From Melghiribacillus thermohalophilus (lineage in GTDB: Bacteria > Bacillota > Bacilli > Bacillales > Alkalibacillaceae), in contig NZ_SMAN01000014.1 in the NCBI RefSeq assembly GCF_004342905.1, positions 1 through 64,000 on the forward strand: a stretch of 64,000 nt of DNA, in the 5' to 3' direction. Position numbers and translations under genes: made by a program. Shown here one piece after another: positions 4,342 to 62,927 of this stretch (position 1 is the stretch's first letter; each line of letters begins with the position of its first letter). The notes beneath the pieces were generated by a model. The model worked only from the letters and a program-made list of their open reading frames with translations. It was not told the DNA's origin and did no database searches.

Positions 4342-4617
4342 ATGTCTAAACCTCCCTGCCAATTGTCTTCGCTCCCATTATATTCTTCACAGGGATTGTC
4401 TTAGTAAATATTTATGAAAAGGCAAGCAGGTATCTGGCACCTCAATGTGGACTGCGTTATTAAGCTGGTCGTCCTTTTCTCTTATCAGCAGCTGCTCTTC
4501 AGATGTCGTCCGGCAGATATACTTTTTCTGTTTTAATAAAAAAAGTGGTAATCCTTTAAAAATAAATTAGGGTGACGTCTATTCAGAATAAATCACATTG
4601 TTCAGATGGGTTGCTGT

Positions 4618-5040
4618 TTAATCGAAAAATTGAATATGTGGTTTTTCCTCTCTGTAATAATGTAAGCGGTCCTGGAGTGTACCGGTGTGGAATTCGAATT
4701 TATGTCCGTCCGGATCGGTAAAATAGATTGATTTTTTGTCCTTTTCATGTCTTTTTCGGCCAGGAAGGATATTTACGTTTAAGCTTTTTAAAGTCTGTAG
4801 AGCCTTTTCAAAATCTTTTTCGTCAATGGAAAAGGCGATGTGGGTGTAGGAATGGTTGATTTCATTTCTTGGGATATCTTTTTCTACATTCAGTGCAATC
4901 CACAGGCCATTGAGGTCAAAATAAGCAGTGTTCTTTCCTTTTAACAGCAATTTAGCCCCAAATACGTTTTGATAGAAATGAATGGAGCGTTGAAGGTCAG
5001 AAACAGAAAACAGCAAATGATTGATCCCTTTGATATTCAT
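4618..5040 (-). CDS. fosB: Metallothiol transferase FosB (fosfomycin resistance family)
   Basis: FosB opens the epoxide ring of fosfomycin by adding a low-molecular-weight thiol (bacillithiol in Bacilli) in a divalent metal-dependent reaction. The 140-residue protein has the glyoxalase-like VOC fold. The expected metal ligands are in place: His8 (GINH), His67 (SYTH) and Glu116 (KFEFH), and the family block [20 protein letters not shown] is intact. Two adjacent ATGs follow AGGAGG; the second gives a better spacing of five bases. FosB genes are chromosomal in many Bacilli, so this is probably intrinsic. Confidence 0.93.
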
Positions 5041-31277: not shown

Positions 31278-31317
31278 TCCCTTCATGTTAAAATAAAGCT
31301 AAATGAATATTAGCTTC

Positions 31318-31413
31318 TGCCACAAAGGGGAGCCGGAAAAGCAGGCTGAGAGTGAACGGTAAACGTTCTGACCCTTTGAACCTGTAAGTTAGTACTTGCG
31401 TAGGGATTGTGGT
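31318..31413 (+). promoter_or_regulatory. TPP riboswitch (THI element)
   Basis: The conserved blocks are in order: AGGGGAGC-like start, GGCTGAGAGT, GACCCTTTGAACCTG and TAGTACTTGCGTAGGGA. It lies before thiT and is followed by a terminator, so thiamine pyrophosphate should turn the transporter off by premature termination. Confidence 0.95.
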
Positions 31414-31449
31414 GTGAACTGCTTGAAAAAGAAAGAGAAACTAGAGATT

Positions 31450-33426: not shown

Positions 33427-33496
33427 AAAAGTTGACGGGTTTTGTAATTCGATTTATAGTAATCTTAAGATAACATTTCATATCGCCTCAGTAATC

Positions 33497-33660
33497 AGGT
33501 GTGACAAGATGGATTGTCACTTAAAAGGGAAGACCGGTGAAAATCCGGCGCGGTCCCGCCACTGTAAATGGGAGCGACCTAAAAGATGCCACTGTTCAAC
33601 CGAATGGGAAGGCTTTAGGGAGCGATGATCATGAGCCAGGAGACCTGCCTGATTGCAAGA
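33497..33660 (+). promoter_or_regulatory. Cobalamin (B12) riboswitch
   Basis: The conserved B12 box and helices are seen: AAAGGGAAGACCGGTGAAAA, TCCGGCGCGGTCCCGCCACTG, GGGAAGGC, and the end GAGCCAGGAGACCTGCC. It precedes the btuFCD importer, with a terminator after it, so adenosylcobalamin should stop transcription. Confidence 0.96.
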
Positions 33661-33722
33661 GCTGATTTCCTTCGGGTCAAAGGAAAGGCTTCACGTCGTG
33701 TATGCTTTTCATACGGCTTTCC

Positions 33723-33825: not shown

Positions 33826-34818
33826 ATGAAACAAATCAAGTCGCTATTTTTATTATTTTTAATGACATTTTCTCTAATTGGCCTCGCAGCATGCGGGGAT
33901 GACGAGTCATCATCTGAACAGGAACAGACGGATGACCCACGACAGGAAGAACATGCAGCAGAAGAAGACAGCCAGACCGAAAAGGAGGCGGATTTTCCGG
34001 TTACGTTAACTGATGACTCCGGCACAGAAATGACGATTGAAAAAAAGCCGGAGCGAATCGTTTCCGTGATTCCAAGTTCCACTGAAATCGCCTTTGCCTT
34101 AGGACTGGGTGATCAAATTGTCGGTGTTTCCGACCATGACAATTACCCGGAAGAAGTGAAGAATATTGAAAAAATAGGGGGACTGGAGTTAAACTTTGAA
34201 AAAATTGTTTCCCTTGAGCCGGATCTGGTGCTGGCAAATACAGCCAATGGTGAGGCCATTCAACAGATGCGTGATTTAGGTTTGAATGTTTTGGTGCTGG
34301 GTGCACAGAACCTGGAAGGGACCTTTGAAAATATTTTGTTAACAGGCAAAGCTACTGGGACATCAGAAAAGGCTGAAGAGGTAGTAAACCAGATGAAAGC
34401 CGAACGGGATGAAGTGATCAACCTGGTCAGTGAAATACCAGAAGAAGAACGGAAAACAGTCTGGATTGAGGTAGGACAGGATTTATTCTCTGTTGGATCA
34501 GGCACATTCTTAAATGAGCTGGTTGAACTGGCAGGCGGAAAGAATATTATGGATGATCAGGAAGGCTGGCCTCAGGTTTCAGAAGAAGAAGTGCTCGAGC
34601 GAAATCCTGAAGTAATCCTTCTGACATATGGGAATTACATGGAGGGAGATCCGGTTGAAGCAGTGAAGAACCGCGAAAATTGGCAAAGTGTTACGGCTGT
34701 TCAGGAAGGACAGATATATAGTCTGGATGGCGATATGGTTACTCGTCCGGGCCCGCGTATTACCCAGGGTTTACAAGAAATTGCCAGAAGCCTCTATCCA
34801 GAAAAATTTAATCAGTAA
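33826..34818 (+). CDS. btuF: Cobalamin ABC transporter substrate-binding lipoprotein
   Basis: A 330-residue lipoprotein of the class III (TroA-like/BtuF) receptor family. The signal peptide ends at the lipobox GLAAC (Cys23), followed by an acidic linker of about 30 residues and the two-lobe domain with PERIVSVIPSSTEIAFALG and the DHDNYP segment. Position behind a B12 riboswitch and before a permease and an ATPase identifies the ligand as a corrinoid. AAGGAGG precedes the ATG. Confidence 0.93.
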   Translation: MKQIKSLFLLFLMTFSLIGLAACGDDESSSEQEQTDDPRQEEHAAEEDSQTEKEADFPVTLTDDSGTEMTIEKKPERIVSVIPSSTEIAFALGLGDQIVGVSDHDNYPEEVKNIEKIGGLELNFEKIVSLEPDLVLANTANGEAIQQMRDLGLNVLVLGAQNLEGTFENILLTGKATGTSEKAEEVVNQMKAERDEVINLVSEIPEEERKTVWIEVGQDLFSVGSGTFLNELVELAGGKNIMDDQEGWPQVSEEEVLERNPEVILLTYGNYMEGDPVEAVKNRENWQSVTAVQEGQIYSLDGDMVTRPGPRITQGLQEIARSLYPEKFNQ

Positions 34819-34832
34819 TTGGAGTTGTTCCC

Positions 34833-35900
34833 ATGAAGCCATTCCAGCTTAACCGGTGGATCATAAAGCTCCTGATCTGGGCCCCGGTATTTGCGGTGAT
34901 TCTCCTGTTCATCATGATGTTCAGTGTGTCCACTGGCAGTGCAGATCTGGACTTGAATACTGTGTGGTTTATTTTACTCTCAAAAGTTCCTTATATTGGC
35001 GCGACGGTTGAGCCGTCCTGGCGGGATAGTGCTGAAACCATTGTGTGGGATATCCGCATGCCTAGAATAATCCTCGGGGTTCTCGTAGGAGCTGCTCTGG
35101 CCGCATCCGGAGTGGTTTTTCAGGGGGTGCTGCGAAATCCTCTGGCAGATCCCTATATCCTTGGCGTTTCCTCCGGGGCAGCTCTGGGTGCTTCACTTGT
35201 CATGCTCTTCGGAATTGAACTGGTCATTCTCGGTCAGTGGACTCTTCCGATTGTGGCATTTTTCACGGGATTTATCACCTTGATTTTTGTGTATTACCTG
35301 GCCAGGGTAAGGGGACAGCTGCAAATCGAAACCCTCATACTTGCCGGTGTGATTGTACAGGCTTTTTTCGGGGCAGTCCTTTCCCTCATACTGGCCCTTT
35401 CTGAGGAAAAAATGCAGATCATTATGTATTGGATTATGGGGAGTCTCGCACTGACAGACTGGAGCTATAATAAAGTGATTTTTCCTTTTCTCATCGTTGG
35501 GCTTCTCGTGATCTGGTTCTTGTCCAGAGAGTTGAATATGCTCATTCTTGGGGAGGAAGCAGCACAGCATACCGGTGTCAATGTGCAGAGAGTAAGGGTC
35601 ATCCTATTAATTGTGGCCTCGCTGATCACCGGTGCAGCGGTTTCCGTTTCGGGTACGATCGGTTTCGTGGGTCTTATTATTCCCCATATTATGCGGCTAA
35701 TTTTCGGTTCAGACCACCGTCTGCTTTTTCCTCTTTCGGTTTTGGGAGGAGCCATTTTTATGGTGGGGGCAGATACGATTGCCCGTACAATTCTTGCCCC
35801 AAGGGAGTTGCCGATTGGGATCATAACAGCTTTTCTTGGAGCCCCGTTTTTCGGATATTTGCTCCGCAGGCGAAAAAACGGGTTTTTTTTAGGAGGATGA
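34833..35900 (+). CDS. btuC: Cobalamin ABC transporter permease
   Basis: A 355-residue FecCD-family permease with about ten helices. It has the family blocks RMPRIILGVLVGAALAASG, GVLRNPLADPYILGVSSGA and GFVGLIIPHIMRL. It forms the channel of the corrinoid importer as a homodimer. It starts 14 bases after btuF and ends four bases before btuD, so all three are one operon under the riboswitch. Confidence 0.94.
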   Translation: MKPFQLNRWIIKLLIWAPVFAVILLFIMMFSVSTGSADLDLNTVWFILLSKVPYIGATVEPSWRDSAETIVWDIRMPRIILGVLVGAALAASGVVFQGVLRNPLADPYILGVSSGAALGASLVMLFGIELVILGQWTLPIVAFFTGFITLIFVYYLARVRGQLQIETLILAGVIVQAFFGAVLSLILALSEEKMQIIMYWIMGSLALTDWSYNKVIFPFLIVGLLVIWFLSRELNMLILGEEAAQHTGVNVQRVRVILLIVASLITGAAVSVSGTIGFVGLIIPHIMRLIFGSDHRLLFPLSVLGGAIFMVGADTIARTILAPRELPIGIITAFLGAPFFGYLLRRRKNGFFLGG

Positions 35901-35904
35901 TGGT

Positions 35905-36675
35905 ATGTTACAGGTTGAATCGGTTTTCCAGAACGTAAACGGCAAACCCATTCTCGATCAGGTCAGTTTTCACGTTAAAAAGGGAAGCTGTTTTGGAATT
36001 ATTGGGCCGAACGGATCCGGGAAAACGACTCTATTGAAATCGATATCAGGATACTACAGGCCTGTTTCCGGGACGATTCGGTTTCAGGGGAAAGAGGTTC
36101 ATGAATTTTCCAGAAAAAAGCTGGCCCAAAAGATGGCGGTGCTGTCTCAGGAATCTCTTCCAAATTATCCGATCACAGTGTTCGATACCGTGTTAATGGG
36201 GCGTTATCCTCATTTGAAGTGGTATCAGCGGGAAGGAAAAAAGGATCTAGAAAAAGTAGATGAGATTCTTGAACTTACCAGTCTTACCCATCTGCGGGAA
36301 CAAACACTGGATACGTTAAGCGGAGGAGAACGTCAGCGGGTAGCGATTGCCAAAGCTATGGCACAGGAACCTGAACTCCTACTCCTTGACGAGCCAACAA
36401 CCTACCTCGATATCGGACATCAGATCAGCCTGCTGAAGCTCGTCAAGACCTGGCAAAATGAATCCGGCTTAACGGTCATCATGGTTCTTCATGATCTGAA
36501 TTTAGCTTCTCAGTTTTGTGACCAGCTCCTCCTTTTGCATCAGGGAAAAGTTGTGAAAATCGGAAGCAGTAAAGAAGTGATCAAAAAGGATATGTTAGAA
36601 AAGGTTTATGAGACTATTCCGGAAATCATCCCTCATCCGAAAACCGATGTGCCCCAGGTCATATTGGGCATTTAA
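35905..36675 (+). CDS. btuD: Cobalamin ABC transporter ATP-binding protein
   Basis: A 256-residue ABC ATPase of the FepC/BtuD class with GPNGSGKTTLL, the Q-loop VLSQES, signature LSGGERQRV, Walker B LLLLDEPTTYLD and H-loop LHDLN. It energises the importer formed with the two upstream genes. The binding site AGGAGGATGATGG precedes the ATG, and a strong terminator follows the stop. Confidence 0.94.
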   Translation: MLQVESVFQNVNGKPILDQVSFHVKKGSCFGIIGPNGSGKTTLLKSISGYYRPVSGTIRFQGKEVHEFSRKKLAQKMAVLSQESLPNYPITVFDTVLMGRYPHLKWYQREGKKDLEKVDEILELTSLTHLREQTLDTLSGGERQRVAIAKAMAQEPELLLLDEPTTYLDIGHQISLLKLVKTWQNESGLTVIMVLHDLNLASQFCDQLLLLHQGKVVKIGSSKEVIKKDMLEKVYETIPEIIPHPKTDVPQVILGI

Positions 36676-36681
36676 TAGCTG

Positions 36682-36712
36682 AAGGTGTCCTTGACATGGA
36701 CACCTTTTTTTA
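36682..36712 (+). terminator. Terminator of the btu operon
   Basis: A perfect 9-bp stem AAGGTGTCC/GGACACCTT with a seven-base loop and a seven-T run. Confidence 0.9.
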
Positions 36713-36785: not shown

Positions 36786-37180
36786 GATGGCCTCGCCGAG
36801 AAAGTGCCACCGCTCGAAAAAGAGTACTGATGACCCAAGGAGAGGGTGTGACGGCCCAAGGAAGCGTGCTGATGGCCCAAGGAGAGGGTGTGACGGCCCA
36901 AGGAAGCGTGCTGATGGCCCAAGGAGAGGGTGTGACGGCCCAAGGAAGCGTGCTGATGGCCCAAAGAAGCGTGCTGATGGCCCAAGAAGAGAGTGTGACG
37001 GCCCAAGGAAGCGTGCTGATGGCCCAAGAAGGGAGAGTGACAGCCCAAGAATCTAAGCTGATGGCCCAAAGAAGAGTGCGAATGGCCCAAAGAGAGGGTG
37101 TGATGACCCAAAGTGAGCGCGCAATGGCCCAAAGAGATGGAGAGACCGCCCAATCCTTTAATCTGACTCCCCAAATGTAG
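36786..37180. repeat. 21-bp tandem repeat array
   Basis: Sixteen units of exactly 21 bases run from 36829 to 37164, followed by a partial unit; two decayed units precede them. The main types alternate: GATGGCCCAAGGAGAGGGTG+T and GACGGCCCAAGGAAGCGTGC+T. All share a GCCCAA core at the same phase. Because 21 is a multiple of three, long open frames appear in several frames on both strands; none has a ribosome binding site, so none is called as a gene. Units diverge towards the right end. It lies between the btu terminator and the DUF368 gene. Function is unknown. Confidence 0.9.
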
Positions 37181-37260
37181 AAATACATCCACGAATAAAA
37201 CGGTTTCTGTTAAAATACATGTATATGGATCAGGAATTTATATACAAAGGAGCTCAAAGA

Positions 37261-38079
37261 ATGGAATGGAAAAATATTTACCGCGGAATGTTGATGGGGG
37301 CCAGTGACTTGATCCCTGGTGTAAGCGGAGGGACGATAGCGGTTGTACTAGGGATTTATGATCGGTTTATTGAAGCGATTAATGGGTTTTTTACCAAACA
37401 ATGGAGCAAGAGTCTAAAATTTTTAATTCCCCTTGGTACAGGCATTATAGCTTCATTGCTCTTATTAAGCAGTTTGATCCACTGGCTTTTTGAACATTAT
37501 CCTCACCAGTTACAGTTTTTCTTTTTAGGTCTTATTGCCGGTATATTACCATTTCTGTTTCGCGAAGCAGGGGTAAAAGAACACTTTTCCGGCTTTCACT
37601 ACATATTGTTGCTGGCTGCAGCCATGCTGGTTGCTTCCATGGTCTTTTTTAAGGAGCCTGGTGTACCTGATATTCTCGATACGTCTAGTACGAGAACGTG
37701 GATTCTATTATTTTTCTCCGGCTGGGTAGCGAGCATGGCGATGATGCTTCCGGGGATCAGCGGGTCTTTTATTCTTCTGTTAATCGGTGTATACCCCACA
37801 GTGATGGCAGCTCTGAAGGATCGGAACCTGTTCTTGATCGGGATTGTGGGTGCAGGAGTGATCGTCGGGATTGTCATCAGCAGCAAAATCATTCAATATT
37901 TTTTGGTGTATCATCGGTCATCTACCTATGCTGTTATCATAGGACTGGTTGTAGGTTCCCTTGCAGTGGTCTATCCTGGAATGACCGATGGAATGGGTGC
38001 TATGTTTTTGAGTCTTCTCTCCCTCCTGCTGGGACTTGCAGCGGCTGTTAGTCTTGGTAAGCTTGAGTATAAACGATAG
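37261..38079 (+). CDS. popT: DUF368 polyprenyl-phosphate transporter family
   Basis: A 272-residue membrane protein with about eight helices. The DUF368 signatures MGASDLIPGVSGGTIAVVLG and MLPGISGSFILLLIGVY form an internal repeat. Recent work on this family (PopT) shows that it returns undecaprenyl phosphate, the lipid carrier for wall and surface polymers, across the membrane; function here is by family. The ATG at 37261 follows AAAGGAG; the frame is open to 37219 without a site. Confidence 0.88.
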   Translation: MEWKNIYRGMLMGASDLIPGVSGGTIAVVLGIYDRFIEAINGFFTKQWSKSLKFLIPLGTGIIASLLLLSSLIHWLFEHYPHQLQFFFLGLIAGILPFLFREAGVKEHFSGFHYILLLAAAMLVASMVFFKEPGVPDILDTSSTRTWILLFFSGWVASMAMMLPGISGSFILLLIGVYPTVMAALKDRNLFLIGIVGAGVIVGIVISSKIIQYFLVYHRSSTYAVIIGLVVGSLAVVYPGMTDGMGAMFLSLLSLLLGLAAAVSLGKLEYKR

Positions 38080-52938: not shown

Positions 52939-53001
52939 GACCCGCCCAAAATAGATGCCGATTGCTCAAAGAGGTGCGCTATCCGTCTCAGGAAAAAGCT
53001 G
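52939..53001. repeat. Decayed 21-bp repeat units, second locus
   Basis: Three 21-base units in phase: one with GACCCGCCCAAAATAGATGC, one with GATTGCTCAAAGAGGTGCGC and one with ATCCGTCTCAGGAAAAAGCT. They keep the CCCAA/CTCAA core position of the large array at 36.8-37.2 kb, here almost worn away. Confidence 0.55.
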
Positions 53002-62822: not shown

Positions 62823-62927
62823 GGGGTTCGAGGAAAGAAGTACAGTCGTTCAGGCTGAAAGAACGACCGCCCAGGATGAGAAGGGAATCACCCAGAGAAT
62901 TAAGATTCATTATACTCAGACTGAATC
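62823..62927. repeat. Decayed 21-bp repeat units, third locus
   Basis: Five 21-base units in phase between ndoA and rsbRA, for example GACCGCCCAGGATGAGAAGG and AATCACCCAGAGAATTAAGA. The conserved part is the CCCAG/CTCAG core, in the same phase as the CCCAA of the big array. No gene is supported in this gap (62732-63103). Confidence 0.5.

Follow-up and report, generated by a model that had tools for sequence, protein, structure and literature searches.

A class of bacterial tandem repeats with units of 20-21 nt was reportedly already described by Subirana and Messeguer in J Bacteriol in 2020. In the analysis of 176 Bacillus genomes published by the same authors, repeats of constant size, either 20-21 or 52 nt, were found, whose sequence varies and is specific to the species, and all repeats of one species have a short sequence in common (Subirana and Messeguer 2021, PMC8161180). 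The correspondence of the unit to two helical turns is noted there, a protein polymerising along the DNA or small RNAs are suggested, and in the consulted part of that description the function of the 20-21-nt class is given as unknown (PMC8161180).

The array reported here lies within a window, i.e. the whole stretch of 64,000 nucleotides of Melghiribacillus thermohalophilus DNA which was analysed, and is built of 21-bp units with a GCCCAA core. It shares the properties by which the class is defined: a 20-21 nt unit repeated at least four times, no amino-acid repeats encoded and a species-specific sequence. Since the class had already been described by Subirana and Messeguer, the GCCCAA arrays join a known class.

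The array in the window and its neighbours

An initial annotation of the window had indicated a phased array of sixteen 21-bp GCCCAA units. TRF and inspection of the letters confirmed it, raising the number to about 17 units, 14 of which contain the exact core. The relevant features of the window are the following:

35905-36675, + strand: ABC transporter ATPase gene, 5' neighbour of the array
36681-36707, + strand: terminator-like stem-loop after the ABC ATPase gene, identified by consensus match alone (about 0.9 expected by chance)
36812-37189, + strand: 21-bp tandem array, about 17 units, GCCCAA core
36833-37174, + strand: best-kept stretch of the array, with cores exactly 21 bp apart
37219-38079, + strand: VCA0040-like (undecaprenyl phosphate translocase-like) gene, 3' neighbour of the array
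52944-52991, + strand: two to three worn in-phase units, intergenic
62848-62895, + strand: three worn in-phase units, intergenic

The first core, at 36812, is worn (GCTCGA), and those from 36833 to 37169 follow in phase. T(A/G)A(C/T)G is found directly 5' of GCCCAA, the wider block being TRAYGGCCCAA. The two unit types previously noticed, GCCCAAGGAAGCGTGCTGATG and GCCCAAGGAGAGGGTGTGACG, do alternate on the left and decay rightwards, and wear is visible at both ends of the array.

The terminator-like stem-loop at 36681-36707, 104 bp from the array, lies between it and the upstream ABC ATPase gene; for this reason the array is probably not part of the mRNA of that gene. On the other side, the true start of the VCA0040-like gene is likely an ATG near 37261, preceded by AAAGGAG. 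Further upstream, a cobalamin riboswitch (129.5 bits, 33480-33666) precedes genes for a substrate-binding protein, a permease and an ATPase (33826-36675), which probably constitute a vitamin B12 uptake operon; a TPP riboswitch is found at 31316-31423 (67.2 bits).

Two other worn intergenic places had been reported in the window, probably those at 62848-62895 and 52944-52991. Both are indeed in phase and intergenic; their distinction from shuffled sequences is weak for the former and fails for the latter. At 62848, 62869 and 62890 the cores read GTTCAG, GCCCAG and ACCCAG, and the two-unit score of 11.0 is narrowly above the best of 30 shuffles (9.5). At 52944, 52965 and 52986 they read GCCCAA, GCTCAA and TCTCAG, with a two-unit score of 4.0 and a three-unit score of -10.8, both inside the shuffle range.

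The array family, its coding capacity and its period

The arrays had also been supposed to form a family spread in the genome, and a genome-wide search for 21-periodic GCCCAA had been proposed. In the 3.0 Mb of the genome (46 contigs), GCCCAA-N15-GCCCAA occurs 324 times, against a single occurrence of the reversed pattern, and the supposition is therefore borne out. Arrays were located by pattern and DNA searches, and 18 stretches around matches were read in addition to the window; the resulting counts, at least 23 arrays and about 560 units together, with roughly 10-50 units per array, are a lower bound. All 23 arrays are intergenic, in tandem, convergent and divergent gene settings, and a terminator-like site is interposed for 19 of the 27 gene ends facing an array. 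In 17 of 23 arrays the core lies on the strand that carries most of the genes, a weak bias; given the clear exceptions, a strict leading-strand orientation was discarded. Neither a shared leader nor a shared tail was found in the flanks of the arrays of this genome, which led to the rejection of a mobile element with common flanks. A plasmid, phage or viral origin was also rejected: no match was found in plasmids or phages, and the search of viral contigs returned 115 stretches, nearly all with one match.

The unit length, 3 x 7 bases, raises the question of whether the arrays encode a repetitive protein made of seven-residue repeats. Long open reading frames overlap the window array on both strands, as had been pointed out (160 and 140 aa on the minus strand, 116 and 89 aa on the plus strand), and in the arrays of the genome three frames are mostly open, with a stop in just 5-7% of units. 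The distances between cores, however, argue against translation: within arrays 315 of them equal 21 and only 10 are not a multiple of 21, and nine of these ten are not divisible by three. The open frames display no excess of synonymous change over the control, and the two frames which do display it are interrupted by a stop in 17% and 60% of units, so that openness and synonymous excess never coincide in one frame. The window array has no Pfam or NCBIfam match above cut-off. Finally, relatives combine units of 20 and 21 bp: in G074, the genome of a relative from another family, they number 61 and 72, respectively, among repeats with the commonest type of core, and a reading frame therefore cannot persist. 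The arrays are not genes, and a heptad-repeat protein is hardly conceivable; the original view of a non-coding array, whose frames are a misleading effect of a 3n unit, is upheld by odd spacings, stops and the synonymous-change test.

The fixed element is a length of two helical turns, and not the codon. Non-coding tandem repeats were sought regardless of the core in 400 kb each of the genomes G008 and G074. All 12 repeats of G008 had a period of 20, 21, 41 or 42; of the 24 repeats of G074, 21 had a period of 21, 41, 42, 62, 82 or 83 and three a period of 52 or 57. These stretches were taken from contigs known to bear an array, for G074 partly from a second contig, and the sample is not fully random.

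A period of two turns would add up any local bend in phase, and the 21-bp spacing could thus serve intrinsic DNA curvature regardless of sequence. Modelled curvature slightly exceeds that of fully shuffled DNA; it is not above that of column-permuted arrays, a mean fraction of 0.37 of which are at least as curved in a wedge model, and the explanation leaves the constant core unaccounted for. It was rejected, and is considered improbable. The same low probability is assigned to a role of the array as structured RNA or small RNA, which has been suggested for the 52-nt class in the consulted part of the literature (PMC8161180). One array of the same-genus genome G001 (L306 11897-12040, + strand) folds better than shuffled sequences, with a z of -4.4; its units look partly complementary. 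In the M. thermohalophilus genome, on the other hand, z values range from -0.3 to +2.2 on both strands, i.e. folding is no better and mostly worse than for shuffles, Rfam gives no match at the window array, and terminator-like sites precede most arrays. Structured RNA was discarded on the basis of folding and of the Rfam search.

Conservation of the core and turnover of the arrays

Across 558 units of the genome, columns 2, 4, 5 and 19 are almost invariant and a conserved block of about 10-11 positions is common to all, while spacers vary from array to array. Between close units of one array the spacer differs in 10.8% of pairs on average, compared with 1.8% for column 19 and about 1% for columns 4 and 5, a change at invariant positions up to 10 times lower. 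Admitting units on a core with no more than one mismatch favours columns 1-6, whereas column 19 played no part in the choice. A comparison of spacer mismatch between different arrays with column composition was set aside, since its outcome follows almost by construction. As the core changes far less than the spacer, either selection or the process of amplification keeps it constant, and its low rate of change fits a functional selection and an amplification need alike.

Cores differ among species. The window array has no DNA match in 60 relatives, and no GCCCAA array is present in the same-genus G001 genome, where the core is TACAACTG (77 phased pairs versus 0 in the control). A 21/42-bp array with the TACAACTG core is located in G001 between the same two genes as the window array. 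This is the only coincidence with G001 array loci among 19 loci of the M. thermohalophilus genome; the shared position may therefore be due to chance or to a favoured spot, and none of the arrays, taken singly, seems to be essential. A first sample of 400 kb from G001 contains no 21-bp array, its arrays being located elsewhere in the genome. Several of them are copies of one block, in which a leader (roughly 160 bp) precedes the array and GC-rich repeats (about 119 bp) follow it; the block is present at several loci with about 94-97% identity. The GC-rich repeat (TCTAGCTTCAGCGCCCAGCCCCTCGA...) directly follows the 21-bp arrays and is copied along with them (L305 5207-5561, L307-L312). G001 contigs 12, 23 and 20 end (L308, L311, L314), and contig 19 starts (L309), no more than a few hundred bases away from arrays, which may therefore break short-read assemblies. 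In practice, arrays can be called as proteins by gene finders and assemblies may be interrupted at them.

In G008 and G014 the core is AACCCGCC; in G074 it is GAGTTCGG. An array whose core is neither GCCCAA nor TACAACTG is also found upstream of the VCA0040-like gene of G008. Several repeat families of like length exist in G074 and G008; the search of the M. thermohalophilus genome covered the GCCCAA family only. Within the Bacillales, similar arrays are present in Ureibacillus terrenus, Sporosarcina luteola, Planococcus beigongshangi, Halobacillus alkaliphilus and Salsuginibacillus halophilus, and short ones in the actinobacterium Williamsia maris. In the latter (L125, L137, L143, L144, L206), dispersed arrays, each with 4-6 of the 21-bp units, have a GCCCAAC core, and several finish in a similar GGGGTG-type sequence. 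In P. beigongshangi (L182), 20-bp and 21-bp arrays with different cores are less than 2 kb apart (4584-4697, 2902-2976). Tandem repeats of 52 bp were also observed, in G074 (L240 1581-2069, L242 5856-6036) and in G001 (L085 17158-17339).

The interpretation tentatively preferred, with a chance of being correct approaching an even one, is that the array is a non-coding satellite of the 20-21-bp bacterial class which serves as a phased protein-binding platform. A sequence-specific DNA-binding protein would occupy the constant block of every unit, and its copies would line up on one helix face to give a nucleoprotein platform, possibly involved in nucleoid organisation or in insulation between genes. 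Units would multiply and be homogenised by unequal exchange or slippage, often as 42-bp dimers, and the core would be swapped between species as the specificity of the protein changes. We infer the binding, the binding protein and the benefit to the cell alike. A platform is suggested by a spacing equal to two turns, by a block which stays constant while the rest drifts, by cores which differ from species to species, and by the intergenic location of the arrays, mostly past terminator-like sites; a similar protein polymer is proposed in the consulted part of the published description (PMC8161180). Against it, the constant core could also be a requirement of an amplifying enzyme, the orientation of the arrays relative to genes shows no more than a weak bias, and the same-genus species has few array positions in common with this genome.

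The main rival of the platform is a selfish, core-dependent amplification, which is possible although given a lower probability. A nickase, recombinase or transposase-like enzyme recognising the core would multiply the units with no gain for the host, and the core would persist because units lacking it go uncopied. The fast turnover of the core within one genus and the duplicated blocks of G001, with their leader and GC-rich repeat, fit this scheme. Moreover, an identical 11-base spacer is common to 16 of 253 pairs of arrays in the M. thermohalophilus genome, so that units have sometimes moved between loci, and the 42-bp alternation of two units within arrays indicates that local amplification is ongoing. 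Selfishness alone, however, does not explain a period of 20-21 bp in unrelated lineages, and neither a candidate enzyme nor a common flank was found for the arrays of this genome.

A broader and rather unlikely proposal likens the arrays to fast-evolving satellite DNA, of which they would be a bacterial counterpart. A single chromosomal factor would bind the phased two-turn units, its specificity would shift between sister species, and all arrays would be rewritten to the new core at a fixed unit length; an array with the new core could then lie between an unchanged pair of genes.

Comparison with known repeat systems

The iterons of plasmid origins recur in direct tandem orientation about every two helical turns, and each is bound by the initiator. 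The arrays described here match them as phased two-turn repeats; they differ in that the window array adjoins neither a Rep gene nor an origin, its neighbours being the ABC ATPase and VCA0040-like genes, and in being dispersed in at least 23 copies. CRISPR arrays consist of long repeats parted by unique spacers. The alternation of constant and variable segments is common to both, but the units found here have about 10 constant and 10-15 variable bases, spacers recur within arrays and the loci number dozens. The STRR heptanucleotide repeats of cyanobacteria are dispersed, intergenic short tandem repeats with a period of 7. Dispersion, intergenic location and the relation 3 x 7 = 21 are shared features, whereas the period is 21 in the present case; many Nostoc matches of the pattern scan show a 7-bp periodicity.

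The 20-21-bp class occurs in several bacterial groups. With a tight core and a helix-set period, the arrays and units counted in this genome narrow the question to the protein or enzyme which reads the core.

As far as the consulted text goes, the 52-nt Bacillus repeats are alike in their constant size and variable sequence, and differ in unit length, while the 20-21 nt repeats are alike in their constant unit, non-coding nature, presence of several arrays per genome, species specificity and short conserved sequence (PMC8161180). The two-turn basis of the 21 bp, the higher conservation of core than of spacer and the existence in the literature of a class with species-specific cores go beyond the initial annotation. 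Relative to the consulted text of the published description (PMC8161180), the indel test, the difference in rate between core and spacer, the alternation of two units and the occurrence of different cores at the same site in sister species are added here.
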